DNA of 64,000 nt, from IMG/VR virus record IMGVR_UViG_3300010413_000005, positions 1-64,000 of that record. One strand, written 5' to 3'. Source of the stretch: a virus. The first letter of the stretch is position 1; each line of letters starts with the position of its first letter. The position numbers and the translations under genes are program-made. This document shows positions 6,070-60,285 of the stretch, in pieces. The notes beneath the pieces are model-generated. The model saw only the letters and a list, made by a program, of their open reading frames with translations. It did no database searches and had not been told where the DNA came from.

Positions 6070-6257
6070 GCCATCCTCCTACTGAATCCGTAGGTCGCTT
6101 TTCCGAATCCGGCGCCGGTAGTCCGGAGGAGCGAAGCGACGATAACAATCCGGCGTATCAACGTGATAGTAACCGGTCGGATAGTTCCGGAGCTGAAACT
6201 ATTTCGAGTTGTAGATGGGAGGCACGTTGGCTGGGAGCTCAACGGGATGCAATGCGA

Positions 6258-6280
6258 TGTTTTATAATATTGTAAGCGCT
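6258..6280 (+). repeat. Iteron-like 23-bp repeat, copy a
   Basis: Core TATAATATTGTAAGCGCT, preceded by TGTTT. It covers the -10 box of a predicted leftward promoter, so a protein bound here should affect that promoter. Confidence 0.85.
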
Positions 6281-6297
6281 TCGTCGTTTATTTACAA
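6269..6297 (-). promoter_or_regulatory. Predicted leftward promoter overlapping an iteron
   Basis: The minus strand has TTGTAA (6292-6297), 17 bp, TACAAT (6269-6274). It would drive the leftmost genes from 6069 down. The -10 box lies within repeat copy a, implying regulation by whatever binds the repeat (inference). Confidence 0.5.
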
Positions 6298-6313
6298 AGT
6301 AAGTTGTGCGCGA

Positions 6314-6336
6314 TGTTTTATAATAATGTAAGCGGT
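6314..6336 (+). repeat. Iteron-like 23-bp repeat, copy b
   Basis: Core TATAATAATGTAAGCGGT: two changes from copy a. Same orientation, 56 bp further on. Confidence 0.8.
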
Positions 6337-6406
6337 GTAGGGTTGTTTTGGGGGTGGCTGGGCGTCGATAGTTGTGAAGTTGGTGAGTTGTCCCGTTTGT
6401 TAGCTT

Positions 6407-6429
6407 TGTTTTATAATATTGTAAGCGCC
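6407..6429 (+). repeat. Iteron-like 23-bp repeat, copy c
   Basis: Core TATAATATTGTAAGCGCC, identical to copy a except for the last base; same orientation, 93 bp after copy b. Confidence 0.85.
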
Positions 6430-6462
6430 CACTTCGGTATAAACAATATATATTGATAGATT

Positions 6463-6485
6463 TGTTTTATAATATTGTAAGCGCT
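6463..6485 (+). repeat. Iteron-like 23-bp repeat, copy d
   Basis: Core TATAATATTGTAAGCGCT, identical to copy a over all 23 bp. It lies 56 bp after copy c, the same spacing as between copies a and b. Confidence 0.85.
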
Positions 6486-7011
6486 TCGTTGACCGATAAT
6501 AGATAAAATAAAAATAGTTGGGGCGAAAAATGGTCATCTGCTGCACTGGTCACACACCAGCCAGCGAGAGCCACACCCCATCGGTTTTTGCCACAGTGGG
6601 GGATACGCCAACATATATTGGATAGGCAGTAGTCCTACGTCCCTTTGTCTATTGTCTATTATCCAACTTACATTGGTTATTCTATATATCGTAGTAGTTT
6701 ATATACGCTATTAGATATTATATTATATATCCAATATACTTTGATCGTCTGGTCGATGTGTTGTGTGTGTCCAGGGGTGGAAGTGTGCGCACACATGGTG
6801 TGTGGGGTGGCAAGCCAGCTATCCACGTATAGTAGATATATACAATCGACAATCGTAGTTCGAACAATCCGCAACCTATTCGAGATTCGAATAGGGCCGG
6901 AGTAATCAGTACGTCTATTCGTTCGTCTAGAATCTCGAGTTGTAGAGTATCCGGAAACGAATAATGTTCATTCTATAGAGAGAGAGTAGCTAACAAATAA
7001 AATCGTAGAAG

Positions 7012-7034
7012 GGCGCTTACATTATTATAATGCA
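7012..7034 (-). repeat. Iteron-like 23-bp repeat, copy e (inverted)
   Basis: The plus strand reads GGCGCTTACATTATTATAAT. Opposite orientation to copies a-d, on the far side of the A/T-rich block. Confidence 0.8.
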
Positions 7035-7053
7035 TACGTATATATAGGGGCAG

Positions 7054-7076
7054 GGCGCTTACATTATTATAAAACA
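7054..7076 (-). repeat. Iteron-like 23-bp repeat, copy f (inverted)
   Basis: The plus strand reads GGCGCTTACATTATTATAAA, then ACA. Same orientation as copy e, 42 bp away (about four helical turns). Confidence 0.85.
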
Positions 7077-7455
7077 TTTCTCCCTTATATAGAGCGATTC
7101 TCGTATAGGGCGTTATAGAGAAGGGCGCGTACGTTCCGGAGAAGGAGCGTATAGGGAGATTTGTATAGGGGTAGTTATCTCTCTCTCGGGAGATTCGGAT
7201 ATTTGTTTGTTTGTTTCACAGGGGAATTTTGGTGCCTACTCTTCGAGCGGCACCAGTGCGATTTCTCGCACCGATCGGCTAGGTGGCTATTTAGGTGTGG
7301 TTTAGGCAGCCTATATTGGAAAATTGGGCGATCTGCAATAGGGCGAAGTGGTGAAAATGTGTGTTTTTAGGCTTGTGGATTCTCGACATCCTACGGGACA
7401 CGCAAACACATTTTTGTGCGCTACGGCCACGATTTATTGGACGTTTTTTCGCGTT

Positions 7456-7478
7456 TGTTATAAAATAATGTAAGCGTA
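7456..7478 (+). repeat. Iteron-like 23-bp repeat, copy g
   Basis: TGTTATAAAATAATGTAAGC, then GTA. A diverged copy resembling the third copy in the initiator gene. It lies just past the 3' end of the gene at 7530. Confidence 0.7.
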
Positions 7479-7529
7479 TTTTAGGATGGAAATTTGTGAG
7501 TTTAGAGATGGGTAACTTTTGTTCCTACC

Positions 7530-21070: not shown

Positions 21071-21079
21071 TGCCTTTAT

Positions 21080-39880: not shown

Positions 39881-40395
39881 TATTTATCACCTTTCTTGAG
39901 GATTTTTTTCATTTGTTCGCGCCGTTCCTCTTCCAGCGGCGACTCTTCGTAGGACTCTTCCTTTGTGGATAGGTCCTGTTTGGCTATTTCCTTGCGGGTT
40001 TTCGCACCCAATGATTGGGATAGATTGCCGCGTTTATCTAAAGTCTTCCAGATGTGTTCTGCGGTGGTGACGTTATCGGAAGCGATCGCTATCGCTTCTT
40101 TCATTTTCAAAAACAGAGGATCTGATTCTATTTTCGCTTTCACCTTCCACTCGGACGCCTTGGGATCTTTTTTTAGAATCAGCTCCGTTGTTTGCGCCCT
40201 CCAAGCACGATAAATCGCATCAGCTTTGATTTGCTCTTCGACCGCGGCGCCCCAAACTGACGACCAGAACGCCATCTGTTTAGACACCTTGCGTTGTGTA
40301 TCGTCGATATCGTTTATGACGTATTCTTCCGGTTCGATTTTGATAGAAACGCCGTGTACTTTGATGACGCGCCTCTTGAAAGAAATGTCTGTCAT
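39880..40395 (-). CDS. Phage replication-cluster protein of unknown function (171 aa)
   Basis: Begins with a basic strand (RRVIKVHGVSIKIEPEEYV), then ISKQMAFWSSVWGAAVEEQI and several charged helices ending in a Lys-rich tail. Between HU-like and SSB-like genes. A recombination mediator or helicase-loader role is possible but unsupported by any motif. Confidence 0.6.
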   Translation of the reverse strand: MTDISFKRRVIKVHGVSIKIEPEEYVINDIDDTQRKVSKQMAFWSSVWGAAVEEQIKADAIYRAWRAQTTELILKKDPKASEWKVKAKIESDPLFLKMKEAIAIASDNVTTAEHIWKTLDKRGNLSQSLGAKTRKEIAKQDLSTKEESYEESPLEEERREQMKKILKKGDK

Positions 40396-40676
40396 TTCTT
40401 ATCCTTTTTCTTTTTGAGCGAATTCAATACGCGCTTGGCGATTTGGCTTTGATTGAATCTCAGAGCTCTAGTCTTGGCGGTATTGAAAGGCTCGCCGTCG
40501 TTTACCAGAGGCGTTTCCATCTTGCGAGATTTGTAAGTAACCGGCTTGAATACTCCGAATCTCGTAATTCGAACCACTTCTCCGGCGTTCACTTTCTCCA
40601 ATATGGATGCGAATATGTCCTTGATTATTTGAGGCTTTACTCGAGCGTCGCGAGCGATTTCCTTGATTCCTGCCAT
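40392..40676 (-). CDS. HU/IHF family DNA-binding protein
   Basis: Fits the family: an N-terminal helix pair, IFASILEKVNAGEVVRITRFGVFKPVTYKSRK with the FGVF turn, then the NTAKTRALRFNQS strand/helix. The 94-residue length is typical. It would bend and pack DNA, perhaps at the origin. Starts behind AGGAGACTCC next to the polymerase stop. Confidence 0.85.
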   Translation of the reverse strand: MAGIKEIARDARVKPQIIKDIFASILEKVNAGEVVRITRFGVFKPVTYKSRKMETPLVNDGEPFNTAKTRALRFNQSQIAKRVLNSLKKKKDKK

Positions 40677-40684
40677 GGAGTCTC

Positions 40685-45587: not shown

Positions 45588-46607
45588 CTATTCGTTCTCT
45601 AATCTTTCTCCGGTCCAAGGATTCCTTTGCCAGAACACTGCGTATTCCGCGGCGCGATCGATCATCTCGTAAGCCATAGGAACCTTGTATTTGTGCAACG
45701 TATCGATTTGATGAGCTTTCGATATATCTTCTTGTTTCCCCATCTGTTCAGGTATTCTGTGGTGACGGAAATGAAGAGGACAAGGAGGATGTTGATCCAA
45801 TCCTTCGTACCGACGTCGATTCTCTTCGTGATAGACGCATCCGGAAAAACAATCGTCCTTGATACACGGAGGGCAAACCAGTTCCGCGAACGCCGGATGG
45901 ACCTTGTTGACCAGTTCGCTTACTATTCCCATGATGACTGGACCCCACAACCCCAATTGCAAAATGAAACAACCTCGTTCTCCGACTATGTGTTGCAACG
46001 AACTGATGTTCATTTTCCAACTCATACGGTGTTGAGATGCGAGCGGCATCGTATCCCGAGCGTCTTCCATAGGTATGTTGCTAGCCACCAAGAAATTGTA
46101 AGTTAGCTGTATTCTCTCCATCAGATCGACGTACGCCCTCAACACGTTAGGATCTCCGTGTCTCAAGATGCTTTCCGGTATGCGATAGTCGCTATCGGTA
46201 AAGAATCGACCTTGATTCCGGATGCGCATTGACTGCGACCAGAACGACGATTTGGCCAGGTCTGGTACAATGTCCATGTAGATATCGGCTCCGATCGATT
46301 CCGGTCCTGGAAGAACTCCGATTCTGTGACGCACGGCTTGTTCCCTCCAAGATATCGAAATGTGTTCCAACATGAAAGTGAAGTCGATGTGTTCTCCTAC
46401 CGGTATGCGTTGTTTTATCACCGAGTGAAAAACGTCTTGCACTTCTTTCGCCGATACCTTCGAATACACTTGGTCCGGAGTCAATAACTCGTCGTCGTTT
46501 TTCGAAGCTTGCCAAACACTGTAAATCGTTTCCAACGGAAACGCTGTGAAAGTCAACAGCGTGACTTTCGGAGTCTTTACCAATCTTTTGTTCGCATTAT
46601 TTTCCAT
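45588..46607 (-). CDS. thyX: Long ThyX-like flavin-dependent thymidylate synthase with Cys-rich tail
   Basis: SISWREQAVRHRIGV (87-98) is the ThyX RHR motif, and ARDTMPLASQHRMSW and HIVGERGCFILQLGLWGPV match the later ThyX helices. After RHR the usual S-x-N/E-x-S-x-R is replaced by GVLPGPESIGADIY. The C-terminal ~90 residues add Cys245, 248, 253, 257 and 276 with several His, which ThyX normally lacks and which could bind zinc or an Fe-S cluster. It may make dTMP or a modified relative such as 5-hydroxymethyl-dUMP (inference). Starts behind GAAAGGAGATCGAA. Confidence 0.75.
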   Translation of the reverse strand: MENNANKRLVKTPKVTLLTFTAFPLETIYSVWQASKNDDELLTPDQVYSKVSAKEVQDVFHSVIKQRIPVGEHIDFTFMLEHISISWREQAVRHRIGVLPGPESIGADIYMDIVPDLAKSSFWSQSMRIRNQGRFFTDSDYRIPESILRHGDPNVLRAYVDLMERIQLTYNFLVASNIPMEDARDTMPLASQHRMSWKMNISSLQHIVGERGCFILQLGLWGPVIMGIVSELVNKVHPAFAELVCPPCIKDDCFSGCVYHEENRRRYEGLDQHPPCPLHFRHHRIPEQMGKQEDISKAHQIDTLHKYKVPMAYEMIDRAAEYAVFWQRNPWTGERLENE

Positions 46608-47181
46608 TTCGATCTCCTTTCGTCAATATGCTAACCGCCAAGTCCCAAAGTCCTTCCGGCGATGTGTGATCTGTGATCAATTTCCACACGCGTGGTACGT
46701 GTTTCCCGATTTGATCGGAGGCGTAATCCAACCGATTGTTTATTCGTTCGGCGTTCTCGGGCATCCTAATTCCCACCCTGCCAACCGAAGTTTTGATGTC
46801 GCACATCAAATGGATGTAAGTCAAATCGGTTCTGGATTTGATGATGTCTATCCACCATTGTAACGTTTCTTCGGCCATTTCTCGATTGAAAAAATCTCCG
46901 TCTTCCAACCCGTACGCGAACGCTGACGGCATCGAACGATCTAACACACATTCCAACGACGTGAATTTGGATAACAAATCCGCTACGAATAGATCTTCTA
47001 CGTACGAATTGAAAGGGATCCTGAATCTCCTCAGTTTCAATTCCAATTCCTTGGCGTGTTTGAAATGAATTGCTGTGTCGTCCTTGAATGCTCTTACGAT
47101 AGGGATATTGAAATATCCACTGACTTTTTTGGCTAGAGTCGTTTTACCGACTCCGTTCATCCCTTCGATTATCACTAACAT
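46597..47181 (-). CDS. Deoxynucleotide/nucleoside kinase-like protein
   Basis: EGMNGVGKTT (6-15) is a P-loop; DRSMPSAFAYG (~81-91) is the DR(S/Y) motif of thymidylate and deoxynucleoside kinases; the lid is Arg-rich (GRVGIRMPENAER). The genome also has a standard tmk at 26 kb, so this second kinase likely has another substrate, perhaps a modified deoxynucleotide made by its neighbours. Overlaps both adjacent genes. Confidence 0.7.
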   Translation of the reverse strand: MLVIIEGMNGVGKTTLAKKVSGYFNIPIVRAFKDDTAIHFKHAKELELKLRRFRIPFNSYVEDLFVADLLSKFTSLECVLDRSMPSAFAYGLEDGDFFNREMAEETLQWWIDIIKSRTDLTYIHLMCDIKTSVGRVGIRMPENAERINNRLDYASDQIGKHVPRVWKLITDHTSPEGLWDLAVSILTKGDRNGK

Positions 47182-48368
47182 CGTGATTTAGCTTCCATCG
47201 CCGAATGTGCTTGTTCCAGAATAGACAATCCGTAATCGAGATCGTCAAGTGTGATATTCAGCGGAGGAGTGATTTTCACCGGTCCTGGTCCCTTCCGGAA
47301 CGCTCCTATGAGCAGACCTCTCTTCAAACATTCCTGCCCCAATTCCAACACGTCGTGCGGACTATCGTACGCTATCAACAGGCCGGTTCCTCTAACGTTT
47401 TTCGGATATCCGATTTTGCCCAACACGCTTTTGACGTGAGACGATTTGCCGTTTATCGAATCCATGTTGGGCGAATACTCCAGATAGTCCAACATACCGT
47501 TCACGTGCGCCATACCGATCGGATTACCTCCGAACGTAGAGAAGTGAGTTCCGGAGGTGAATGTTTCGCTAAACGGTTTCAACGCCAAACAAGCTCCGAC
47601 CGGGCATCCCATAGCTACTCCCTTGGCCATCGTCATTACGTCCGGCTGTACGCCTATCTTTTTCGCGTAAGAGAAATCTCCGCAGCGTCCGGCGCCGGTT
47701 TGGACTTCGTCGAATATCAACGTTATGTTGTGTTCGTTACACTTGACTCTCAAGTCGATCAACCAGTTGTGATCGTATTCTCGGACGTCGTTGTTGCCGA
47801 ATACTGGAGCTATGAGGACCGCGGTGGCCAAATATGGATCTATCTCTTCCAGATGTTCGAATTTTCTGAATCCTCCAGTCAGCGGTCCGAATCCCTCTGT
47901 GTGGTGCGGAGGACCGTCGCCGGCCGATAGCGATCCCAGAGTTCGGCCATGAAATGATCCTTTCACTGTGTAAATGTATTTGCTACGTCCTGATTCGTAC
48001 GTAAAATCTGATTTGAATCTCTTGTATTGATACAAACGCGCCAACTTGATCGCCGCTTCGACCGCTTCGGTTCCGCTGTTACAAAAAAACACCTTATCCA
48101 TACCGGTCAAATAACACAGACGTTCCGCGGCGATGTTTCTCTCCTCGAAGCTGAACAGATTGGGAACGTGAACCGGAGTGTGATTCCCTTTCATATCGCT
48201 AATCACTCTTTCGTGACACACGGAACAATATCCCAACGACGAAGTTCCGACGTCGCAGAAGAAATCCAGGAATCTCTCTCCGCGTCTGGTAATCAAATAA
48301 GATCCGTTTCCCGATACGAACTCGGGAGCGTATTGATTCAAAGTATTCATCAACGATTTGTTACACAT
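47175..48368 (-). CDS. Class III PLP aminotransferase (ArgD/OAT-like)
   Basis: FCNSGTEAVEAAIKLAR (95-111), KGSFHGRTLGSLSAG (136-150), DEVQTGAGR (220-228) and the PLP lysine in TMAKGVAMG (Lys249) define the fold type I class III. The usual EP-(I/V)-x-GxxG segment is altered to APVFGNND, changing the residue that normally contacts the substrate, so the substrate probably differs from ornithine. Aminotransferases of this class are unusual in phages. In an operon with ThyX and a dN kinase it could install or remove an amine on a modified base precursor (inference). Starts behind GGAGGACAATAG. Confidence 0.8.
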   Translation of the reverse strand: MCNKSLMNTLNQYAPEFVSGNGSYLITRRGERFLDFFCDVGTSSLGYCSVCHERVISDMKGNHTPVHVPNLFSFEERNIAAERLCYLTGMDKVFFCNSGTEAVEAAIKLARLYQYKRFKSDFTYESGRSKYIYTVKGSFHGRTLGSLSAGDGPPHHTEGFGPLTGGFRKFEHLEEIDPYLATAVLIAPVFGNNDVREYDHNWLIDLRVKCNEHNITLIFDEVQTGAGRCGDFSYAKKIGVQPDVMTMAKGVAMGCPVGACLALKPFSETFTSGTHFSTFGGNPIGMAHVNGMLDYLEYSPNMDSINGKSSHVKSVLGKIGYPKNVRGTGLLIAYDSPHDVLELGQECLKRGLLIGAFRKGPGPVKITPPLNITLDDLDYGLSILEQAHSAMEAKSRC

Positions 48369-49273
48369 CTATTGTCCTCCGCTAATCTGGTTATGTCCTT
48401 CCAATTGTATACCCTTGTGATGCTTTCGTGTTCCACGGATTTGTTTTTAGGAGTGTCGTAAAGTAAAACCTTGATTCCGGCTTGCGCCAATGATAATGCG
48501 TTCCTATCCAAGTCTTCTACGAAAAAAATCGGCCATGCCGGAGAAATGTGTCTGTAAACCGCCTCTACTTTGTCTCTGTTGAAAAGCAATATGTCGTACG
48601 GTATTTTGTATTTGCGCAACCACCATAAGGTATCGTGATACATTCTCTTGAATTGCCATTGCGGTCGCGCCGTTATTATGGCTATCTTATACCCCATCGA
48701 TTTCAATTTTCTGATTCCGGTAATCGCTCCGCGGATCGGTTTCAATTCCCGGAGGAATCCCTTCGAATGCAATTCATCCTTGTATGCTTCGATTTCGTCG
48801 AATCCCTTGCCTCTGTATTCTCTTTCGCTTTTAGAACGCAGAGCGTTGAAATCGGTTATCACGTCGTCCATGTCCAAACAAATCAACTTGGTGAACTTGG
48901 ATAATTTGAATTTGGCCGCGGTCGCGCGCGTCGATATCACTTTGGTTTTGCTATCGAACACCTTGGCTATGTCTTCCGGTTCGATTCCGTACACCAAAGA
49001 CAAAGAAATCGTGATTTTCAGAATATCCACCAATTCCTCTACCACATTACGTTTATCGGGAGAGTGTGTGTCCAAAAGGTGTCGTTTGTAGGAAGGTGAC
49101 AAACGAGCCAATTCGCCCACTTCTTCGTACAACAACATCGTCAGATCTTGAATCGCTCGAGTCGCCTCTAAATTGCTCATGCAAGACGAATCCATTCCGA
49201 ATTCCTTCTGCTGTTCTTTTTGCAGCTTCCAGAATGCGTCCAAGGATCTATCGAGCGATTTCTTACTTTCCAT
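48350..49273 (-). CDS. MazG/dUTPase-like domain fused to HAD 5'-nucleotidase
   Basis: Residues ~10-110 form an all-alpha NTP pyrophosphohydrolase-like domain (LLYEEVGELARLS, Glu50/51/54; VVEELVDILKI, Glu79/80, Asp83). Residues ~125-307 are a HAD phosphatase: ICLDMDDVITDF (Asp134, Asp136), IITARPQW, a Lys in NRDKV and FFVEDLDRNA. Chained, they could convert a dNTP to dNMP and then to deoxynucleoside, wiping out a canonical nucleotide. Substrate is unknown; dCTP or dTTP/dUTP are plausible. The fusion supports a role in pool replacement. Behind AAAAGGGAGTAGGCG. Confidence 0.75.
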   Translation of the reverse strand: MESKKSLDRSLDAFWKLQKEQQKEFGMDSSCMSNLEATRAIQDLTMLLYEEVGELARLSPSYKRHLLDTHSPDKRNVVEELVDILKITISLSLVYGIEPEDIAKVFDSKTKVISTRATAAKFKLSKFTKLICLDMDDVITDFNALRSKSEREYRGKGFDEIEAYKDELHSKGFLRELKPIRGAITGIRKLKSMGYKIAIITARPQWQFKRMYHDTLWWLRKYKIPYDILLFNRDKVEAVYRHISPAWPIFFVEDLDRNALSLAQAGIKVLLYDTPKNKSVEHESITRVYNWKDITRLAEDNRCVTNR

Positions 49274-50258
49274 CGCCTACTCCCTTTTTCCTCCAACCCC
49301 AATGCTTAGCCAAATCGTACGCTTGCTCCATGACGACGTCGACGGTGGCGCGCGGATTCCAACTCGCGAACCGACCCAACGGCGCGACTCTTTCCGGCCA
49401 TTGAGGAGGTTCCGCCAATGGTAGCAAATGCCCTTTCATATTCCTTTTCCATTCCAGTATTTCGAATCCGTTGGGGAATAGAAAATTCAAATCAGAATAA
49501 ACTCCTGATTCGTTCATTTCTCCGGATACTTCACACGAATAGAATCCGTCTACGTATGACAACCTGTGTATGGAATTTCCCGGAGTGTACGGTGTGTAAA
49601 CGTAATCCCAACGAACGTACGGATTGCCTACCGGTTTCACGTTTATCAAATGCAAGGCCATCGCCGTAGAATCGGGAAAGTGTTCGAAATGTCCTATCTT
49701 TTTGATGATCCACAACGGTATGGTGAATACCAAATAATCGAAATCGAACGTAACGGCGTTGGTGTTTATCGCGATTCCGGCGTCAAGAGAGAACGTAGCT
49801 ATAGCGCTATTGTTTATATTGGCTCGTTTGCCCAATTCTTCTATCAACGCGTTCAAATCACATCTCATGCCCTTTTTCGTGTTACCGGAGAACGGATCGT
49901 TCATGCACTTGGTAGAGAATTCGCTGGGTTCCATCTTGCGCGTTTTTACGTAATGATCGTGCTGTATACGCTCAAACGCCTTCCGTCCTACTTTCTGCAT
50001 GTGTTTACGATAGTCCTTGACTTCTCCTTGTAAGTGTATCCCTCCCTTTATGGTGAAGTTGCTGTACGCCAAACCGAGTTCTCCGAGCATCGATCTGATC
50101 AGATTACTTTTGTGTAGATACTTCAATCCTCCAGAGGAGAACTCTCCTCCCAATTTGTTGGGTTCGAATACCGTCACTTCGATATCGTAAAATTGATTGA
50201 AAACGTAAGACGCGACCAACCCGGAGATTCCTCCTCCTACCACAATTACTTTTTTCAT
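49263..50258 (-). CDS. FAD-dependent oxidoreductase (amine oxidase/mutase-like)
   Basis: GGGISGLVASYVF (8-20) is the dinucleotide-binding fingerprint; FEPNKLGGEFSSGGLKY matches the second FAD contact. A C-terminal GRFASWNPRATVDVVMEQAY is the FAD-binding end seen in UDP-galactopyranose mutases and amine oxidases. 331 residues, shorter than typical amine oxidases. First enzyme of the operon; it could oxidise an amine or modified base. Its ATG overlaps the stop of an 18-codon leader ORF. Confidence 0.75.
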   Translation of the reverse strand: MKKVIVVGGGISGLVASYVFNQFYDIEVTVFEPNKLGGEFSSGGLKYLHKSNLIRSMLGELGLAYSNFTIKGGIHLQGEVKDYRKHMQKVGRKAFERIQHDHYVKTRKMEPSEFSTKCMNDPFSGNTKKGMRCDLNALIEELGKRANINNSAIATFSLDAGIAINTNAVTFDFDYLVFTIPLWIIKKIGHFEHFPDSTAMALHLINVKPVGNPYVRWDYVYTPYTPGNSIHRLSYVDGFYSCEVSGEMNESGVYSDLNFLFPNGFEILEWKRNMKGHLLPLAEPPQWPERVAPLGRFASWNPRATVDVVMEQAYDLAKHWGWRKKGVGDGK

Positions 50259-51209: not shown

Positions 51210-52209
51210 CTGAAAGCTTTTTTACCAGTTGTGAATACCAAGTCACGTAATCTGACACATATTTCCAAGTGTATTCAGCTCCTGAAACACCTCCTGTAAT
51301 CAAATTGTATTTACCCTCTAAAACCAAAGTCTTATGAATCTTTCCCTTCTTCAAGAACAGTACCGCTCCCCAATGGTAGTAATGAACCTCTCTCGCCCAT
51401 TCTCCGGCCGATTGGATATCCCTGGCCGGATCGTTAGGTCTGGGATCAAGATTGCGTTTCTTGATTATCTTTCTGACGAAATCGTAATCGAATTTGTTAT
51501 TCTTGCTTAGGTGTATCATGGGCCAAGTACCCTTGTCTATATATATCTGTGATATCTCGGGAAATTCTGATTCTGCCAGATACGTAAACGCCCTCCTGAT
51601 TCGTAGGCTGGAATAGTCGACCGCGTTCTTGCTCACACCGATATACTTGGCTATCAATCCGTTGGTCATCTCGGATTCGCCTTCGTTGTCCATGAAAATC
51701 ATGAACGCCTCCGGTGGATGACACATGATATCCAAAACGGTCCGATCTCGTTCGCACAACTTGTTTCTCAATTTCATTTTCAATTCCAGGCGACGCTGGT
51801 TGTCTTCGGATTGTTCGTAAACGGAATACGGATCCGGGATGTCTCCCTTGATAGTTTCTCCGGATTGCTCGGCCATCTCTTCTATCGAGACTAACTGCCA
51901 AGCCTGTTTGGAAACTATCATCCGTCCGTTTCTTTCTTGAACTACGTGCGGAACCTTGGAATTGGTCATAGAATTCTGTATTATTCTTATGGCTTCGTAT
52001 CTCAAAACCTTACTGACGAATCTGTGGAATTTACCTCTTCCGGCGTTGAAATCGTACGAATCGAAACACCTCTGAAACATGGCCACGCGCAATTCTTGCA
52101 TTGCGTCGTCGAACGGGATACCGGAAGCGATGTTGATTTTTCTAGCGTGCGTTTTCAGAATTGGCCATACGTGCTTTTCCAAATCCGCGTACAATTCTTG
52201 TAAAACCAT
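51181..52209 (-). CDS. Divergent sigma70-family factor
   Basis: IPFDDAMQELRVAMFQRCFDSYD and FHRFVSKVLRYEAIRIIQNSM resemble sigma region 2 (core binding, -10 recognition). ERDRTVLDIMCHPPEAF then GLIAKYIGVSKNAVDYSSLRIRRAF fits region 4 with a helix-turn-helix. No region 3 is obvious; a ~120-residue C-terminal extension is unique. It may program late transcription while the RpoD-like factor at 16.8 kb serves another stage (inference). Start at 52209 behind AAAAAGGGAGATCGAA. Confidence 0.7.
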   Translation of the reverse strand: MVLQELYADLEKHVWPILKTHARKINIASGIPFDDAMQELRVAMFQRCFDSYDFNAGRGKFHRFVSKVLRYEAIRIIQNSMTNSKVPHVVQERNGRMIVSKQAWQLVSIEEMAEQSGETIKGDIPDPYSVYEQSEDNQRRLELKMKLRNKLCERDRTVLDIMCHPPEAFMIFMDNEGESEMTNGLIAKYIGVSKNAVDYSSLRIRRAFTYLAESEFPEISQIYIDKGTWPMIHLSKNNKFDYDFVRKIIKKRNLDPRPNDPARDIQSAGEWAREVHYYHWGAVLFLKKGKIHKTLVLEGKYNLITGGVSGAEYTWKYVSDYVTWYSQLVKKLSDARKQKKVP

Positions 52210-53824
52210 TTCGATCTCCCTTTTTACCGAACAACTTCTTTCCCAGACCACTGTACAAAGCCAAGGGTAAATCATCCAATTTCATTATCGCGGAACAAAC
52301 GGCTCCGGTTTTCTGATTGTAAAATGCGGCCACATCTATAGTAAGCACGCCTATGGATATCACTTCTATTCCGGATTTCGTTATCGTTTCCACAGATTCA
52401 GCCAAATGGTTGGCTAAAATACCACTGTCGCATCCGTACGCCAAGGGCGCTCCGTCCGACAATACAATCAACACTTTGCGCTTTTCTTGTCGCACTATCA
52501 AACGTTTAGCAGCAGACAAAATCGCTTCTCCGTCCGCGTTATCCATGTATCCGTCGATGAAAGAGAATCTACTTCTGCACACATTTAGTCTTTCATCGAA
52601 TTCCTTGAATACTATGTAATCGAACGGCGCTCGAGCCTGATATATCTCGTCTTCGAAGTTGATTCCCTTCGGATATCTTTCCACATTGTTGTGAAATCCC
52701 AATACTTCAAACGGGATTCCCAATCTCTCTATGGTGTCGGATAATCCTACGGCGGATACTCTTACGTGCCAAGCCTTGGTCTTTTTCTTTTTCGCCTTGC
52801 CCATGGAACCGGACAAGTCAATCAAAATCAATATCGCTGTTGAAGTATCGACCGGAGCTCCGCGTTCATAATGCACGTTTCGATTACCGGTTATGACCGA
52901 ATGTAGAGAAGAAGAATCCAGAAATCCGCTATCTCGGTCGCCGATCGGAGCGCGTTCCTTTTCCGCTCTCATTGTTTCGATAATCGCCCTGCGCATCGCC
53001 GAAGCATTCTTCTTCGTTTCTGACAAGTCGGATACGAACGTGGACGCGTTTCCGGTAGTCGGTTTCACCCAACGGTCCATGGCCAAACAATCCGGATGCG
53101 GAATGTATCTGCCATTCTTCAACACGTCGTTCTTTGATTCCTGTTCGATTTTGTCTTTCAATCGCGATTTGAAATCGAAAGATTGCTCTCCGGCCGGAGG
53201 GATGAACGAAATCATAGGAGATATCTTCTTGGCCAATTCGTATGTACTTTCGGAATCGGCAAGCGATTTCACAGACAAAAACATCTCAGATATCGGTTCG
53301 TATTCGGATCTAACGTGATCCGGAATCCACCTCAAATCCAGATTCAACCCGTCGGATATCGCTGCGCACAAAAGCATTTTGAAGTCGGACAATTCTCCGG
53401 CCTTGGATTGCTTCTCTAACAACTTCGACGCCTCATTGTTGGAGAAATCCAGATTGTCTTTCATTCCCGGATAAATCGCGCCGTATTTCAATTCTATTCT
53501 GATGTCTTCCAAAGCGTTGAATGCCGACTTCACTTTCACGTCGGATTCGTTTTTGTACAGATCTACGGCGCCCCTCAAACCGCGATTCTTGGAATACACT
53601 TCTTCGGCCGCGTGACACAATTCGTGATCCAGTTCTCCGTTCAACGCGCGCATTGAGGACTTGCCCAGTTTGTCCGAATTGTAAGGCAATCTTATCACGG
53701 TTCCGTCGAAATCACAACGGCATCCGGTCATTTCCACTGATACGTGGTAATTGTTCGATATCGCGCGCGCTATGTTAGCGAACGGAGTCTCCAGCTTCCG
53801 GAGGTGTTGAACAGATTTTTTCAA
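52142..53824 (-). CDS. CobT-like VWA protein with HEXXH motif
   Basis: The C-terminal half has a von Willebrand A fold: ILILIDLSGSMGKA (MIDAS Asp336, Ser338, Ser340) and VLIVLSDGAPLAYG. The N-terminal half has DHELCH (His67-Glu68-His71), a zinc-protease-like motif, and acidic helices. It pairs with the MoxR-type ATPase directly upstream, as CobS/CobT or MoxR/VWA pairs do to remodel a target. TTG start behind GGAGGAACTAC. Function unknown in phage. Confidence 0.8.
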   Translation of the reverse strand: MKKSVQHLRKLETPFANIARAISNNYHVSVEMTGCRCDFDGTVIRLPYNSDKLGKSSMRALNGELDHELCHAAEEVYSKNRGLRGAVDLYKNESDVKVKSAFNALEDIRIELKYGAIYPGMKDNLDFSNNEASKLLEKQSKAGELSDFKMLLCAAISDGLNLDLRWIPDHVRSEYEPISEMFLSVKSLADSESTYELAKKISPMISFIPPAGEQSFDFKSRLKDKIEQESKNDVLKNGRYIPHPDCLAMDRWVKPTTGNASTFVSDLSETKKNASAMRRAIIETMRAEKERAPIGDRDSGFLDSSSLHSVITGNRNVHYERGAPVDTSTAILILIDLSGSMGKAKKKKTKAWHVRVSAVGLSDTIERLGIPFEVLGFHNNVERYPKGINFEDEIYQARAPFDYIVFKEFDERLNVCRSRFSFIDGYMDNADGEAILSAAKRLIVRQEKRKVLIVLSDGAPLAYGCDSGILANHLAESVETITKSGIEVISIGVLTIDVAAFYNQKTGAVCSAIMKLDDLPLALYSGLGKKLFGKKGDRNGFTRIVRGFGKARMANSENAR

Positions 53825-54936
53825 GTAGTTCCTCCGAAATGTCTCTGTACCAATCCGCCTACGAAAACGGAATCCGAAGCGTCCATCTTATTCAATATGG
53901 TGATTCGCGCCGCTCGAGTTACATCTTTCAGTTTCAAATTTTTGCGCGACCATTCGATCAACGACCGAGTTGAAATGGACGAATAGCAATCTCCTCTACT
54001 GCAAGACTCTCTAACCATGTTGGCCAATCTGACCATCTTGGTCGCCGTTCGGTCGTCTATTCCCTTACACCGCTTCATCAATATGGATTTTTCCACTTTC
54101 GGACTCGGGAACGTCATATATATCACGACTCCGAACCGATCGACGAATGACTCTTTTTGAGGCAAATCATTACATGTAGCGATGATTCTGAAATTGGGAT
54201 CGAATTCGATCGATCTGCCTCCGTCTCCGGTGATTACCAGCTGGCGAGGTTTGGTCATGGCGGTGTACAACGAAAACGATATGTGTCCGGGCATCGCTTC
54301 GACTTCTTCCAACAGTAGCCAATAACCGCGATCGGCCGATATCGGTAGCGAACCGTCAAACCATTCGGTTTTTGATTGCCCGGTCTTCTTGTCGATGGTC
54401 ACACCCTTTTCTCCGATGAATTCGGCTTTGCGCATATCCCCATCGTTTTGTACCCTCAATACCGGTTGATTGCAGATCGAAGCCAACTCCATAACCAGGG
54501 TGGATTTACCGACTCCGACCGGTCCGTGTATCAGAACATTGTCGTCATCTTCGATTCCCAAAGACAACTCCTCAAGATGACCCGCTTCTCGATCTGATAT
54601 GATCCATTCCGGATCATGTATCGGAACCATTTTGGAATCTCTCTCCGAGAGCTCTCTTTTGAAAGAAGGACTCGCAGCCCCTATTCTGAATACTGTAAAA
54701 GATGATCCGGTTCCCGGATCGACTCCGATTATGTTATGGCGACTTGCCTCTTTGCGCAATTGGTGCGCTGCGTCGCTGACCGTCGGAGCTCCGGGATACT
54801 TGTTCAGATACGCGATGACGTCCATATCGTGTTTCTTGTTCACGTGGACGTCTAATCGATGATACCATTGTCCGCATTCTTTACACTGTATTTTTTTGCG
54901 GCCTTTTCCGTCAATGCTGCTAGTAGGATCTCCCAT
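53821..54936 (-). CDS. MoxR/CobS-like AAA+ ATPase with N-terminal zinc-finger-like domain
   Basis: CKECGQWYHRLDVHVNKKH (18-36) is a C2H2-like knuckle, followed by a MucR-like DVIAYLNKYPGAP helix. The AAA+ core has GPVGVGKST (Walker A), YWLLLEEVEAM (Walker B), FRIIATCNDLPQ (sensor 1) and FVDRFGVVIYM (Arg finger region). Partner of the VWA gene. It directly follows promoter P6 with nearly no 5' leader. Confidence 0.85.
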   Translation of the reverse strand: MGDPTSSIDGKGRKKIQCKECGQWYHRLDVHVNKKHDMDVIAYLNKYPGAPTVSDAAHQLRKEASRHNIIGVDPGTGSSFTVFRIGAASPSFKRELSERDSKMVPIHDPEWIISDREAGHLEELSLGIEDDDNVLIHGPVGVGKSTLVMELASICNQPVLRVQNDGDMRKAEFIGEKGVTIDKKTGQSKTEWFDGSLPISADRGYWLLLEEVEAMPGHISFSLYTAMTKPRQLVITGDGGRSIEFDPNFRIIATCNDLPQKESFVDRFGVVIYMTFPSPKVEKSILMKRCKGIDDRTATKMVRLANMVRESCSRGDCYSSISTRSLIEWSRKNLKLKDVTRAARITILNKMDASDSVFVGGLVQRHFGGTT

Positions 54937-54984: not shown

Positions 54985-56007
54985 TCAGATTTTTATGTAT
55001 ATTTCTCCGAGAGCGTTTATCCTATCCCTCAGAGCTGATACATATTCCTTACGATCTCCTGTGAATTTCTTGGCCTTTTCTATGGTTTCCATAGCTTGAT
55101 CAAGATTGGATTTTCCCGGATCTATTCCGTCCGGTAATCTGCCGATGTACACGTTCCGGAAATGAGATGATAAGCGTTCCGCGACCTTGAACGGCGCCGT
55201 TTTCTCTTCCGGATCGAGCACTACGGTAACTCCGCACAATTCGTCCAGCCTGCACAGCAAATCAAACTGCTCGTCGTGAAGAACCTTGCCTCCCAGCCCT
55301 ATCGTTGGAATGCCGTGTTGATTGAATATAACAGCATCTATCGGTCCTTCAACCACACAGAAATCGGTAGCGCCCAATTTCGCGATGTCCCAACCTATCA
55401 AAAGTCGTTTGTGGTCTATTCCCTTTGGATTGAGATATTTTGGTTCCAGTTCTCCGGTCATATCCCGAGATGTGAACGATTGCCCGTTGGGACAAACTAT
55501 CGGAATGATCAGTCTGTTCCTATATCTTCCACGAGTGCAATATCCCATGTTCCATGCGCGCGCGGTGTATGATTTGATTCTTCTACTCTTCAAATACTTC
55601 GGAAGTCTCCATTTGCCTTTTCGATAAATCGGCTTCATCTCGCTGGGCAGCTCCGCCATTACGTCGCCGTCCGGTAATTCGTCGTCGTCTTCGGATATCC
55701 TCAGAGATGCTATCCTACTCTTCAACGTTTCCAGGTCATCTCTGCGTCGAAACTGAACAGCTTGGCGAAATACCAATCTGACCGCTTCTTCCCAAGATAT
55801 GCCCTCCGCGGTCGCTACCAACCCGAACACGCTGTTGCCTCTGAAATCGCACTTGAAACAAACATATTTTCCGGAACGCGTATTGAAGTAGAACGAACCG
55901 AACTTGCCGCAGGCCGGACAAACTGCGGTCATCTCGTCGCCGGTTGAAGGTTTACAACGATCTAATCGGGATTCACCCCAAGAGCGTATATCAAACCCCT
56001 TGCTCAT
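54985..56007 (-). CDS. DnaG-type DNA primase
   Basis: N-terminal zinc ribbon (CPACGKFG near 30, CFKCDFRG near 50), RNA-polymerase domain with FTSRDMTG, and a TOPRIM core with VVEGPIDAVIF (catalytic Glu) and VTVVLDPEEK. 340 residues: shorter than bacterial DnaG, lacking the helicase-interaction domain, like other phage primases. Makes RNA primers with the DnaB-like helicase encoded upstream. Confidence 0.9.
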   Translation of the reverse strand: MSKGFDIRSWGESRLDRCKPSTGDEMTAVCPACGKFGSFYFNTRSGKYVCFKCDFRGNSVFGLVATAEGISWEEAVRLVFRQAVQFRRRDDLETLKSRIASLRISEDDDELPDGDVMAELPSEMKPIYRKGKWRLPKYLKSRRIKSYTARAWNMGYCTRGRYRNRLIIPIVCPNGQSFTSRDMTGELEPKYLNPKGIDHKRLLIGWDIAKLGATDFCVVEGPIDAVIFNQHGIPTIGLGGKVLHDEQFDLLCRLDELCGVTVVLDPEEKTAPFKVAERLSSHFRNVYIGRLPDGIDPGKSNLDQAMETIEKAKKFTGDRKEYVSALRDRINALGEIYIKI

Positions 56008-56317: not shown

Positions 56318-56535
56318 TTCTTATCCCTGGCTATCCATGTGCGCAATTCTCTGCCGACCAATTCGGTGGCTTCCGTGTATCCGAATCCGCCTCTTTCCGC
56401 GATTCGTTCGGCGCTTTGTCCGCAATGATATTTCTTATCATAAGCCAACCAAATTTCCAAATGCTCTTCCCAAGAAATGGTTCCTCTCGGATGTCCGTTT
56501 TCAGCCTGTATCGGTGCACGTTTTTGTTCGCTCAT
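56314..56535 (-). CDS. Small HTH-like protein (73 aa)
   Basis: SAERIAERGGFGYTEATELVGRELRTWI looks like a helix-turn-helix, as in short DNA-binding or terminase-small-like proteins. Weak evidence. Overlaps the helicase and the 108-residue gene. Confidence 0.45.
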   Translation of the reverse strand: MSEQKRAPIQAENGHPRGTISWEEHLEIWLAYDKKYHCGQSAERIAERGGFGYTEATELVGRELRTWIARDKK

Positions 56536-57932
56536 CTTCTGTCCTCAACTTCCTTCTCCCGGATTCTCATCTTGTGATATTCAGCGAGCGCCGGAACGAT
56601 CTTGCCGGATTCTCCGTCGCGATGTTTCGCTATGAACAAATCGAGCGCTTTCTCCGGTCCTTCTTCCGGAGCTTCAAATTCCTCGTCAATCTCTTCGTCG
56701 TCTTCGGTGACCTTGACTTCTTTCTTCCTGTTCTGTTTGCCGTAATCCGGATCGTTCACGCTGATAATCAAGTCGGCAATTCGAGCCTTGTCGTAGCTTT
56801 CGGCCGTCCCTTCAGCCATAGCCGTTTTATCAGCCCACTGAGAACCAGCGTGAACGCTGGAATATATGGCGTATCCTTCGTCTTCTCCTAACCCCTTGGC
56901 TCTCCAATAAACCTCAGATTGCTGCAGCCGAAATTTCTCTCCTCTCATATTCGTGGCCAATATGTGATCCAACGAATCGAAACAAATCAACTTCGGCCGC
57001 CAACCGTCGAATTGTTCTTTCAAATCCTCCAAAAGCGTAATCACGTCTTCGAACGTTGCGGACCGGACCGGGAACGAGGCGATTTTCAATTTGTTATTGA
57101 ACTTCTTGGCCATCTTTTTGTAGCGCTTATCGATGGCTCGAGCGTCCTGCGGTGTGAGATTGTAACCCTTCAAATCCTTGTAGTTCATTCCCAACCACAA
57201 AGCATCAGCTCGAGTCGCGACCTGGCGCGCCGGCATTTCGAACGGTATCACAAGAGTCTCATATCCCTGCTTTATCGAGTGGTACGCCAGATTGTTGAGA
57301 GCGATCGATTTGCCTTTACCGGTCGTTCCCATTATCAGACCCAACTCTCCTATTCGCAACCCCTTTGTTATATTGTCTATCGTCTTCCATCCGGTCATTA
57401 TCGCTGTTACTTCGTCCGGATGTTCTCTTTCGTATTTTCTGGCGTCTTGACGATCGTAAAACTCCTCTACCCAATTGATCAGAGTGTACTTTCTCTCCTC
57501 AACTTTCTTTTTGCTGGCTTCTCCGAAAACCTTGTAAACGTCGTCCAAGTCTCCGTCTTCGAGATGTTTTGCCCCCTGTTCCAAAGCCAGCTGCGCGTTT
57601 ACATACAAAACGAATTTCTTCAATCGCTCGAGCGCCAATTTCGGATTATCCGCGCGTTTCTTGGCTATCCTCTTCACCGCTTGCAGATGGGATAGTCTCT
57701 CCTCTTGTTTCCTGCGGAAGTTCTCCTTGGCTATGGCCATGTACATTTTCGGAGTCGGAGTCTCTCCGAATTGCGTCAAAGAGTATCTCAACACGCTCCA
57801 AATCCAAGAGCGCTCCTTGCTTCCGAAATGATGAGCGTCGCAGATCCGGATGGCCTGTTTCGCGTACGCCTTGTCGCGCATCGCACAAGCTAAGATGGTT
57901 TCTTCAAACTCTTTATCGAACTTACGATCCAT
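56532..57932 (-). CDS. DnaB-like replicative helicase
   Basis: N-terminal helical domain (~1-150), linker helix, then a RecA-like motor: ELGLIMGTTGKGKSIALNNLAY (Walker A), LVIPFEMPARQVATRADAL, LICFDSLDHILA (Walker B), VHAGSQ and an Arg-containing ending. The C-terminal tail is rich in Glu (EDDEEIDEEFEAPEEG). Hexameric 5'-3' helicase of the replication fork, loaded by the DnaC-like protein encoded directly upstream. Confidence 0.9.
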   Translation of the reverse strand: MDRKFDKEFEETILACAMRDKAYAKQAIRICDAHHFGSKERSWIWSVLRYSLTQFGETPTPKMYMAIAKENFRRKQEERLSHLQAVKRIAKKRADNPKLALERLKKFVLYVNAQLALEQGAKHLEDGDLDDVYKVFGEASKKKVEERKYTLINWVEEFYDRQDARKYEREHPDEVTAIMTGWKTIDNITKGLRIGELGLIMGTTGKGKSIALNNLAYHSIKQGYETLVIPFEMPARQVATRADALWLGMNYKDLKGYNLTPQDARAIDKRYKKMAKKFNNKLKIASFPVRSATFEDVITLLEDLKEQFDGWRPKLICFDSLDHILATNMRGEKFRLQQSEVYWRAKGLGEDEGYAIYSSVHAGSQWADKTAMAEGTAESYDKARIADLIISVNDPDYGKQNRKKEVKVTEDDEEIDEEFEAPEEGPEKALDLFIAKHRDGESGKIVPALAEYHKMRIREKEVEDRR

Positions 57933-58596
57933 TATATCCCATAGATTTGGACATTTCTGTTGCTTCTTTGGTTCTGTAATCTCCTCCTAACATTTCCACT
58001 GTTTTATATTTCCCAGTAAGCATTGAGCTGATCGTCGGACCGTACGATTCACGCAGATCCTTTTCACTGAGATTGGAAGCCAACAACGTAGGGAAAGCGT
58101 TGTCGTATCTGTTCTTCAACAGAGCTTCCAAACGAGAAGCCAAGAACCCACTTTTCGAAGTGTGCTCTTTGCCCAGCTCGTCTATGAACAGAAAATCGGA
58201 GTTCAAACAATATCGCAACAGTTCGGCCGCGACCGGACTGTCGAATCCGATTTTGATATTGGTATCCAAATCGCTCAAAGTGGTGTAATAAATCCTGTAC
58301 CCTACTCGGACCGCTCTTCCCAAGATGTAACAGCCGAACATGGTTTTTCCGTTGCCGTTATCGCCCACGAATAGCAATCCGTATCCATTGTTGTACGCTC
58401 TGTGTAGTTTATTCTTGTATTTGAGCACTACCGACTGAAAGATATCCACGTTGTGTGTGACGTCCGACGATTTGACGTACCAATGAATCGATGGAACACA
58501 ACCCCTGTAAAGAGCCAAGTCGTATCTGTGTTTTGAGTTCTTCAGGTTGTATTTTCTGTCCATCGCGAACGATAGGACTTCGCTATCACTTCTCAT
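57922..58596 (-). CDS. DnaC/IstB-like helicase loader
   Basis: LLFVGDNGNGKTMFGCYIL (Walker A), SDFLFIDELGKEHTS (Walker B) and a short sensor TLLASNLSE. The 224-residue AAA+ core fits DnaC/lambda-P-like loaders. Gene order initiator, loader, helicase is like a lambdoid replication module. ATG at 58596 behind AGGTGATTCGA, slightly overlapping the initiator gene. Confidence 0.85.
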   Translation of the reverse strand: MRSDSEVLSFAMDRKYNLKNSKHRYDLALYRGCVPSIHWYVKSSDVTHNVDIFQSVVLKYKNKLHRAYNNGYGLLFVGDNGNGKTMFGCYILGRAVRVGYRIYYTTLSDLDTNIKIGFDSPVAAELLRYCLNSDFLFIDELGKEHTSKSGFLASRLEALLKNRYDNAFPTLLASNLSEKDLRESYGPTISSMLTGKYKTVEMLGGDYRTKEATEMSKSMGYNGS

Positions 58597-60184
58597 TCGA
58601 ATCACCTAGGTTTTTCACCGCCCAATTGACAATCGGACGCAATGTCGGAGACATAAATATCTTATTTCCGTTACGCACGCTGTCTGCCATACTCTGAATC
58701 GTCGCCAAAAAACGGTCGCTGTACAACGTCGAATCCAACCCCAATGATCTTATGCCTTCGCGCAATCGCTCGTCTAGCGAATTCGTATCTGCGAATGTAT
58801 TTTTGATTTTTTCCCTTGGTTTATCGCTCTTTTTGCGTTTATCCAGATTGGCGCAAGCCACCTGGTCTATCATCGCCGGAGACTTGAGTATGGACACCGG
58901 AGGTATGGTCAAGCCTTTTCTCGCGAAGGAGCCTATATGTTCGTGCCAATACTCGAGAACTTGCCGCGGAGTCACCCCCTTCTCGATGCACAACACTCCG
59001 GCCTCTTCCGCATATGACTTCTCCTTGTCTGGAAGCACAGAAGGAAACGAGATCGGCCGGCCCTGCGATACTTCGGCCGCGCGGCGATACCGGACGTAGA
59101 TTCTCGAGAACTCCACTCCCAGTTTGGCGATCAGTTTCTTGCGTGAGTTGTCACGTTTCGATTTGCTCAATATCCGGAGCATGCGCGGTCGCTCTTTGCT
59201 GTTCGGATCGAACGACACGCTCGGGTGTCCCCTCTGGTCCAGATTCTCGAAGCGAATTTCTTTACCTCGACGCAAGTCGAGTTCGGCAACTTGTTGCCGA
59301 AGGTTTCTCCTCCCAGAATCAGCACGTTTCTTCTCCGAAGAAACGAGTACTTTAAATTTGTTTAAATTTAATTTACTTAAATTACTTAAATTTAAATTAG
59401 TTAAATTAGGGGATCCAAGGGGAGCGACTTTAGTCCCTTCCGAGTTGTTTTCAGATTGTTTGTTTTCAACAACTCGATTCGTTTGTTGTAAGTATCCGTC
59501 TTCTTTGGTGAATTTCCTTCTTTTTATCAATTTTTCTTCAACTTTTATTGTATTCCGAATTGTTGATAAATCGCCAGATAGTAAATACAAATTATCTTGA
59601 TTATTAGTGGTTATATTTTCTATTAGCATTGAATTGTTGTCGTATGTTTTATAATGATGTAATCGATCGCGTAATACGCAAACATAAAATTGTCCCGCGT
59701 AATCATAATAAGTTGTATTTGCAGGTTGTGTATTTCCTTTATAATATTGTAAGCGCTTCGATTGTAAAATCAATTCGGATAACGTGACGGCGCTTACATT
59801 ATTTTCTAACATGAAATTTGACAATCTAGTGACCGCGTATCCGCTCTTGATCATCAATTTTCTCTCCACTACGACTTCAGTAGGTTTGCCAGATCCGTGT
59901 GGAATGAAACTGATGTAATTCTTGCGCTCGAGTTCTCTCAATATCTGATTGCTACGACGTTGTGAATACTCCAACTTGTGTGCCAACGCCGTACGTCCGG
60001 ACTTCAACGTCTTGGAGTCGTACGTCAAAAGTTTCATCCACACTGCTAGCGCCGGACACGATAACTCTTCACAAGCGGTTTCGATATCGGCCGGACCTTC
60101 CCAAGGAAACAATTCTTTCGTAGCTTTGAAACGCGTTCCGGAGGAATGTTTCGTAGTGGAAAGTATGGGAATGTGTTTTTTCAT
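58586..60184 (-). CDS. Lambda-O-like replication initiator with origin inside the gene
   Basis: Residues ~35-90 form a winged-helix-like domain (CPALAVWMKLLTYDS, TALAHKLEYSQRRSNQILRELERKNYISFI), typical of phage O/DnaD-type initiators. The region for residues ~124-180 holds three iterons; ~258-278 is an A/T-rich block coding for Asn/Leu. The C-terminal half has basic segments and REXXEYWHEH-like helices for loader contact (inference). ATG at 60184 lacks a ribosome-binding site and follows a strong hairpin; a GTG at 60226 is an alternative start. Confidence 0.7.
   Translation of the reverse strand: MKKHIPILSTTKHSSGTRFKATKELFPWEGPADIETACEELSCPALAVWMKLLTYDSKTLKSGRTALAHKLEYSQRRSNQILRELERKNYISFIPHGSGKPTEVVVERKLMIKSGYAVTRLSNFMLENNVSAVTLSELILQSKRLQYYKGNTQPANTTYYDYAGQFYVCVLRDRLHHYKTYDNNSMLIENITTNNQDNLYLLSGDLSTIRNTIKVEEKLIKRRKFTKEDGYLQQTNRVVENKQSENNSEGTKVAPLGSPNLTNLNLSNLSKLNLNKFKVLVSSEKKRADSGRRNLRQQVAELDLRRGKEIRFENLDQRGHPSVSFDPNSKERPRMLRILSKSKRDNSRKKLIAKLGVEFSRIYVRYRRAAEVSQGRPISFPSVLPDKEKSYAEEAGVLCIEKGVTPRQVLEYWHEHIGSFARKGLTIPPVSILKSPAMIDQVACANLDKRKKSDKPREKIKNTFADTNSLDERLREGIRSLGLDSTLYSDRFLATIQSMADSVRNGNKIFMSPTLRPIVNWAVKNLGDSNEK
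59351..59408. other. A/T-rich block inside the initiator gene (candidate unwinding element)
   Basis: Nearly all A and T over 58 bp, with repeated TTTAAATT and ACTTAAATT units (for example TTACTTAAATTACTTAAATT). It lies 236 bp from the nearest iteron copy. In lambda, an A/T-rich stretch beside the O-gene iterons is where the helix opens. It encodes a Leu/Asn-repeat linker. Confidence 0.55.
59645..59667 (+). repeat. Iteron-like repeat in initiator gene, copy h
   Basis: TGTTTTATAATGATGTAATC then GAT: three or so changes from the noncoding copies. Read in the antisense direction of the gene. Confidence 0.7.
59735..59757 (+). repeat. Iteron-like repeat in initiator gene, copy i
   Basis: TTTATAATATTGTAAGCGCT preceded by TCC; 21 of 23 positions equal copy a. 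It also continues with TCG as copies a and d do, which is hard to explain by coding need alone. Confidence 0.8.
59789..59811 (-). repeat. Iteron-like repeat in initiator gene, copy j (inverted)
   Basis: The plus strand reads GGCGCTTACATTATTTTCTA. Opposite orientation to copies h and i, and most similar to copy g of the noncoding region. Confidence 0.75.
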
Positions 60185-60200
60185 TCGAGAATTAAAAGAG

Positions 60201-60236
60201 AAACGGCTCCGTGCATAGAGGAACACGGAGCCGTTT
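60201..60236 (-). promoter_or_regulatory. Strong leader hairpin before the initiator gene
   Basis: AAACGGCTCCGTG, ten-base loop, CACGGAGCCGTTT: 13 perfect pairs, followed on the minus strand by CTCTTTTAATT and then the initiator ATG. It lies between promoter P8 and the start codon. It could be a terminator/attenuator or a translation switch, since no ribosome-binding site is seen. Confidence 0.65.
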
Positions 60237-60285
60237 CAATGGGAGATTCGAATATCTTGGTACAGTGCCTTTTGGCGATTAAGTT

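Follow-up and report, generated by a model that had tools for sequence, protein, structure and literature searches.

The window examined here, a 64,000-base stretch of phage DNA, contains within the coding sequence of a replication initiator what is, judging from the sequence, probably an initiator-binding and DNA-melting locus, and most likely a theta-type origin, accompanied by additional noncoding loci elsewhere in the same genome. This reading is built upon the computed repeats, their sharing among three loci, the low-stability DNA found with them, the gene order of the replication cluster, and the domain layout of the initiator; furthermore, a relative keeps the same architecture with other repeats. 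The window corresponds to bases 1-64000 of a 113,818-base virus record, the remaining bases of which were analyzed as well. Both record ends have a 144-bp direct repeat in common, and the record is therefore probably a complete, circular-mapping genome of ~113.7 kb. It represents a large, undescribed, contractile-tailed phage, which carries almost all of its genes on the minus strand and encodes its own PolIII-type DNA polymerase, a portal protein, and a sigma factor.

Several other features of this genome deserve mention in their own right. The PolIII-alpha-like polymerase (window 40685-45322, minus strand, 1545 aa) contains a ~350-aa insertion between its finger domain (ending at 793) and its HHH motif (starting at 1141), which matches HNH endonucleases and is possibly an intein; the homologous polymerases are ~270 aa shorter in two of the relatives introduced below (G001 and G002), not in the third (G003). 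A minus-strand gene cluster at 45588-50258 encodes a ThyX-like protein, a class-III aminotransferase, a dUTPase/nucleotidase-like protein, and an FAD/NAD-binding protein, and might make a modified thymine. At 52142-54936 (minus strand), a MoxR/CobS-type AAA+ ATPase adjoins a CobT-like VWA protein, a pair present in all relatives. A second repeated motif, approximately AAAGGTTTGAAAAGGTAGGTA, occurs on the minus strand at window positions 3327-3340, 4732-4790, 5750-5770, and 21079-21095, within or close to short noncoding stretches of the early region, and is perhaps a phage-specific promoter or regulator site.

The initiator gene heads a replication cluster:

58586..60184, minus strand: initiator gene, an ORF of 532 codons from an ATG at 60184
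Residues about 30-118 of the initiator: winged-helix N-domain (AF2 model)
Residues about 111-290 of the initiator: linker, disordered, with very low model confidence (AF2 model)
Residues about 320-527 of the initiator: helical C-domain (AF2 model)
57922..58605, minus strand: AAA+ DnaC/IstB-like helicase loader (PF01695, E 1e-10; phrog_50, E 1e-29)
56532..57932, minus strand: DnaB-like replicative helicase (PF03796, E 3e-12; phrog_19, E 3e-52)
54985..56007, minus strand: DnaG-like primase (phrog_47, E 2e-42)

A longer GTG start of the initiator gene is possible at 60226. Directly upstream of the ATG, a perfect hairpin with 14-bp arms and a T-rich tail (60200-60237, minus strand) probably terminates transcription of the UvsW-like helicase gene that precedes the initiator. 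The loader and helicase matches bear out the earlier note, which had placed these two genes next to the initiator; the primase follows two small genes further on, and the order initiator, loader, helicase, primase is kept in all relatives. The N-domain is modeled well as a winged helix (AF2, pLDDT about 88), whereas the full-length model is poor (mean pLDDT 54), and for this reason no fold is claimed for the C-domain. By sequence, the N-domain weakly matches a DnaD-like family in four of four members (best E 0.0046) and replication-initiation families in three of the four. Its structure matches include the RepA N-domains 4pql, 4pt7, and 5kbj, the last of which is bound to iteron DNA, and these tie with MarR regulators at Z about 8-9. 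Sequence searches of the PDB with the initiator returned nothing useful, an Rfam search gave no match, and no relatives of the initiator were found in cultured phages or in bacterial and archaeal species genomes.

The gene itself encodes the winged-helix domain, followed by iterons, an A/T block, and the C-terminal domain, in that order, which places an iteron-plus-A/T locus inside the initiator gene as previously proposed. We refer to this as locus B:

59644..59667, plus strand: in-gene iteron 1, ATGTTTTATAATGATGTAATCGAT, 25.5 bits, the weakest of the three
59734..59757, plus strand: in-gene iteron 2, TTCCTTTATAATATTGTAAGCGCT, 30.4 bits
59789..59812, minus strand (inverted): in-gene iteron 3, ATGTTAGAAAATAATGTAAGCGCC, 29.1 bits
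59351..59408: 58-bp A/T block, 93% A+T, encoding PNLTNLNLSNLSKLNLNKFK, a candidate melting element
59521..59670: second low-stability stretch beside the iterons, G+C 0.24, an alternative candidate melting element

All three iterons lie within codons 125-181, in the part of the gene encoding the linker, and conform to the consensus ATGTTTTATAATAWTGTAAGCGC. The earlier note had listed them as 23-bp repeats at essentially these places; they are recovered here as 24-bp matches, with iterons 2 and 3 making an inverted pair, an orientation which that note did not state. Their bit scores derive from a matrix for which the seven copies at 6.2-7.5 kb were the sole training set, so that the claimed agreement between in-gene and noncoding copies is confirmed without any in-gene copy in the training, and all three exceed the maximum of 19.2 bits reached in 20 first-order Markov-shuffled genomes. 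Likewise, the window contains 10 matches to a 17-base consensus with at most 3 mismatches, compared to 1.07 +/- 1.07 (largest 4) in 100 dinucleotide shuffles, while a 16-base pattern finds 13 matches in the whole record versus 0 for the backward-read control. Among other IMG/VR contigs, the iteron core turned up in 40 stretches, never more than once in any of them and nowhere as a cluster, and these matches were taken as chance. The further suggestion that the in-gene copies keep bases not required by coding is only partly right: at the encoded peptides KRLQYYKGN and DRLHHYKTY, much of the DNA motif follows from the amino-acid sequence itself. When the linker protein and codon set are held fixed, 0.14% of synonymous shuffles give three sites this good, yet 36% give at least one. 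Since so much of the motif is carried by the peptide sequence, a DNA-level function is argued mainly from the identity with the noncoding copies.

The A/T block likewise proved to be as described; nowhere else in the window do 58 bp reach an A+T content of 93%. It occupies codons 259-278, also in the linker, and its A/T-richness exceeds that of 99.65% of synonymous shuffles; the least stable 60-bp stretch of the entire record starts at 59348. It is separated by 235 bp from the nearest in-gene iteron. The second stretch, 59521..59670, is the lowest-G+C 150 bp of the initiator gene, a value reached by only 0.01% of genome windows, and the record's third least stable 100 bp starts at 59525.

When the whole record is considered, it is evident that locus B has two counterparts. 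The record holds 14 iteron copies in total, confined to exactly three places (seven in locus A, three in locus B, and four in locus C), and all 11 copies outside the initiator gene are noncoding:

6257..6485, plus strand: locus A left array, four iterons at 6257, 6313, 6406, and 6462 (35.1-36.6 bits)
6645..6744: locus A candidate melting element between the arrays, without an iteron, the least stable 100 bp of the record
7012..7077, minus strand (inverted): locus A right array, iterons 7012-7035 and 7054-7077 (33.0 and 37.1 bits)
7455..7478, plus strand: locus A outlying iteron (29.1 bits)
Record 109234-109434, outside the window: locus C, four iterons, three in tandem at 21 bp and the fourth at 109411

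Locus A (6257-7478) occupies a 1.46-kb noncoding gap (6070-7529), and six of its seven iterons point at the 6645-6744 element. Locus C occupies a 259-bp noncoding gap with a G+C of 0.28, and its three tandem iterons are arranged head to tail. Locus A lies ~53 kb and locus C ~64 kb from the initiator, downstream in the direction of transcription. The earlier note had called the in-gene site the origin; it stands as a candidate locus, but the genome has two others of the kind, one of which (C) is beyond the window and was out of that note's view, so that the role is not assignable to it alone.

The three loci also coincide with the least stable DNA of the record. In a nearest-neighbor stability profile of the whole 113.8-kb record, a calculation in which the iterons play no part, the three non-overlapping 100-bp stretches of lowest stability start at 6645, 109173, and 59525, those of 60 bp start at 59348, 6678, and 109192, and at both sizes these are the three iteron loci. 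With the iterons masked, loci A and B are still the top two at 60, 80, 100, and 150 bp; locus C is third at 60 bp, whereas in larger windows a stretch ~300 bp to its right ranks third, and its low-stability rank is thus partly dependent on the iterons themselves. Under random placement of three clusters, the masked coincidence has a P of about 5e-6, an indicative figure only, as it uses a 300-bp margin and ignores the A/T-richness of noncoding DNA. The DnaA box TTATCCACA is absent from the record, and the box TTATNCACA occurs just twice, at 66194 and 16358, neither of which is near any of the three loci. In same-strand genes, the GC skew at four-fold sites has change points at 60.2 and 105.1 kb of the record (signal 30.2 versus at most 22.0 in 60 gene-order permutations), with the former point beside the initiator. 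However, these change points fall on the boundary between the replication and structural modules and are not seen in G002 or G003, and they are therefore not used as proof of an origin.

Relatives of the initiator were found in IMG/VR on three large contigs (G001, 53.5 kb; G002, 116.5 kb; and G003, 105.5 kb, the ends of which share a 123-bp repeat) and on a 4-kb fragment holding the C-terminal part of the protein. The three large contigs are collinear with this phage, their proteins having roughly 25-70% identity to its own, and among the relatives the N- and C-domains of the initiator are conserved, while the linker is variable. A marked G+C minimum falls in the linker of this phage (0.24), G003 (0.41), and G002 (0.43), with a mild one in G001 (0.44); third-position G+C also falls there in this phage, G003, and G002, and the G003 linker ties for the least stable 100-bp stretch of its record.

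It is the comparison to G002 that carries the most weight. Its iteron family, AACYCWATTACCCTA, is unrelated to the repeat of this phage and is present as nine copies in a 2.2-kb noncoding gap (90964-93171), with more at 96.0 and 102.4-102.9 kb. One 21.0-bit copy, first spotted by eye and scored afterwards, lies together with two weak ones (9.2-9.5 bits) at 37802-37882, between the two halves of the initiator, which in G002 is split into N-domain and C-domain frames (L054 7971-8321 and 8428-9555) exactly at the iteron copy. On a reading of the sequence, the frames do not overlap, and the split is therefore not accounted for by a single sequencing indel. The loci downstream of the initiator are at about 55 and 65 kb in G002, compared to about 53 and 64 kb here. 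The two phages have a common layout with a different repeat, as would be expected if an initiator and its sites change together. A separate dispersed motif of G002, CAAAAAAGTTCTCGACTTGTGGAAGCA, recurs at up to nine sites (85.2-89.9 kb and 70.6-98.3 kb) and probably marks promoters. For G001, no repeats common to the linker and elsewhere were found, and for G003 none that are clear: its noncoding gap at 39751-42637 has GYGTGGGG repeats and its linker two copies of GGCGTGGG, a weak link. The G003 linker also contains a 15-bp tandem repeat, CCTAGATCCTTAACC (L055 8862-8954), just where the present phage has its A/T block.

The earlier note regarded the locus as lambda-like. In lambda, iterons lie in the middle of gene O, followed by an A/T-rich tract, with the helicase-loading gene P next (PMC7466680), and the order here is the same. 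The likeness holds for this layout, whereas it fails for protein family, loader type, repeat spacing, and A/T distance. In the lambda ori, 85 bp accommodate four regular 18-bp iterons, all on one strand and flanked by the A/T tract; here, there are three, their starts 90 and 55 bp apart and one inverted, with the A/T block 235 bp away. Unlike lambda, the next gene encodes an AAA+ IstB/DnaC-like protein rather than one of the lambda P type, and this phage has two more loci and its own DnaB. Neither the initiator nor its relatives match Phage_rep_O (PF04492) in Pfam, which lambda O itself matches with an E of 6e-36, and a profile comparison of the initiator with lambda O yields a probability of 1.9%. 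With no Phage_rep_O match, a DnaC-like loader, and spaced repeats of which one is inverted, membership of the locus in the lambda type is not supported.

Likened by gene order and extra distant loci, the closest published analogue is instead the Bacillus phage SPP1. SPP1 encodes its gp38 initiator, gp39 loader, and gp40 DnaB-type helicase together, carries origin repeats plus an A/T-rich melting element inside gene 38 (oriL), and has a second such locus, oriR, in a long intergenic region (PMC6316719; PMC3485210), for which a role as a later origin or a fork barrier has been proposed (PMC3485210; PMC6316719). Here too, the repeats lie within the initiator coding sequence, the genes for initiator, loader, and DnaB-type helicase are adjacent and in the same order, and distant loci (A and C) combine the same repeats with an A/T-rich element. 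The systems differ in that there are three loci ~53-64 kb apart here versus two separated by 12-13 kb in SPP1, and in the AAA+ DnaC-like loader and the repeat sequence of the present phage.

Plasmids and a vibriophage offer more distant parallels. The origin of RepA plasmids of the RepA_N type often lies inside the rep gene, and in R6K several dispersed origins (alpha, beta, and gamma) are served by one initiator, with seven 22-bp iterons at the main origin and one origin in or near the initiator gene. R6K differs in being a plasmid with another initiator family and loci within a few kb. Secondary and tertiary origins are also mentioned for IncX plasmids (PMC3402527). The RepA_N initiators (RepA of pTZ2162/pSK41 and of the V. 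cholerae PLE) pair a winged-helix N-domain with iteron binding (PMC7145576), as is predicted for the present initiator. The likeness is at fold level only and no better than that to MarR regulators; Pfam gives no RepA_N match for the initiator, and its C-domain shows no relation to RepA_N initiators by any test run. The Vibrio phage ICP1, which is similar in genome size, has an early, bidirectional coverage peak near 60 kb and a late one near one genome end, suggesting that such a phage can use two origins in turn (PMC7145576). In the passages of that source consulted here, in-gene iterons are not described for ICP1 (PMC7145576).

Based upon these features, a sequence of events can be proposed. 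The winged-helix initiator would bind the 22-24-bp iterons within the stretch of its own gene coding for its flexible linker, and the bound complex would melt nearby A/T-rich DNA, where the AAA+ loader and DnaB helicase encoded immediately downstream would be loaded. The initiator would presumably also bind the noncoding loci A and C, each beside its own low-stability DNA, which could serve as further origins, or as control or fork-stalling sites as proposed for SPP1 oriR. By analogy to SPP1, the in-gene locus may be an early origin like oriL, with A or C as a later origin or fork barrier, or the reverse may be true. The in-gene copies are weaker than those of locus A (25.5-30.4 versus 29-37 bits), and hence locus A could be the main origin. 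The distance between the A/T block and the nearest iteron, greater than that in lambda, also speaks against an in-gene origin.

In an alternative that we consider unlikely, the true origin is noncoding locus A (or C) and the in-gene iterons are bound by the initiator for control, by autorepression as a roadblock in the way of the gene's transcription, through titration or handcuffing with the origin, or as a fork barrier. Locus A does have more and better copies, six of the seven facing the record's least stable 100 bp; the main array of G002 is likewise noncoding, with one clear copy at the initiator gene; and the wide spacing and partial inversion of the in-gene copies would suit looping as well as an origin. 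Against this, the in-gene locus has a candidate melting element of its own, which neither a plain roadblock nor a site for titration would need, and the A/T-rich dip in the linker recurs in relatives even without visible common repeats.

A phage transcription regulator or sigma factor might instead use the repeats as its operators or promoters, the copies in the initiator gene being regulatory. This would fit a consensus containing TATAAT, a phage-encoded sigma factor, and the intergenic position of loci A and C, but it is quite improbable given that 11 of the 14 copies are on the plus strand while nearly all genes are on the minus strand, that three sit in a gene and three others run head to tail at 21 bp, and that low-stability DNA is found at every cluster. 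A circular-mapping genome in which a single repeat forms several scattered clusters would also be in keeping with sites for partition (centromere-like) or recombination, yet neither a ParB N-domain, an AAA_31-type ParA, nor a tyrosine integrase scored above the cut-off in this genome and the three relatives, and such sites would leave both the placement in the initiator gene and the pairing with low-stability DNA without explanation; we regard this as very improbable. As for a chance or low-complexity resemblance, an A+T content of 68% in the linker and the apparent disorder of the segment encoded there would favor it, but the match counts far exceed those of the shuffles and refute it, and within the linker the three iterons reach 21.9-28.1 bits versus 2.8 bits for the next best site, which leaves this explanation a negligible probability.

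If the preferred reading of locus B as an initiator-binding and melting site is extended to the whole lineage, a broader and decidedly tentative picture emerges, in which these 105-116-kb phages might run their genomes from three loci acting in coordination, each pairing iterons with a melting element, the first lying in the initiator gene and the other two roughly half a genome distant. Between relatives, the positions would be kept as initiator specificity and iteron sequence are replaced together, and the loci might take turns, with theta replication early and concatemer replication late. Should this be true, the in-gene and noncoding loci must co-evolve. In-gene origins are already known from lambda and SPP1; what is new here is probably a multi-site version of that start-site layout, the in-gene locus being one of three dispersed loci in a large phage, as well as a relative that retains the layout with an unrelated iteron sequence. 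Together, these phages offer a comparative system for how an initiator, its coding sequence, and its distant binding sites change specificity together, and one for testing the theta-to-concatemer switch proposed for SPP1 oriR. They also suggest a simple means of origin prediction in uncultured phages, namely to look for repeats common to the initiator linker and the least stable noncoding DNA.
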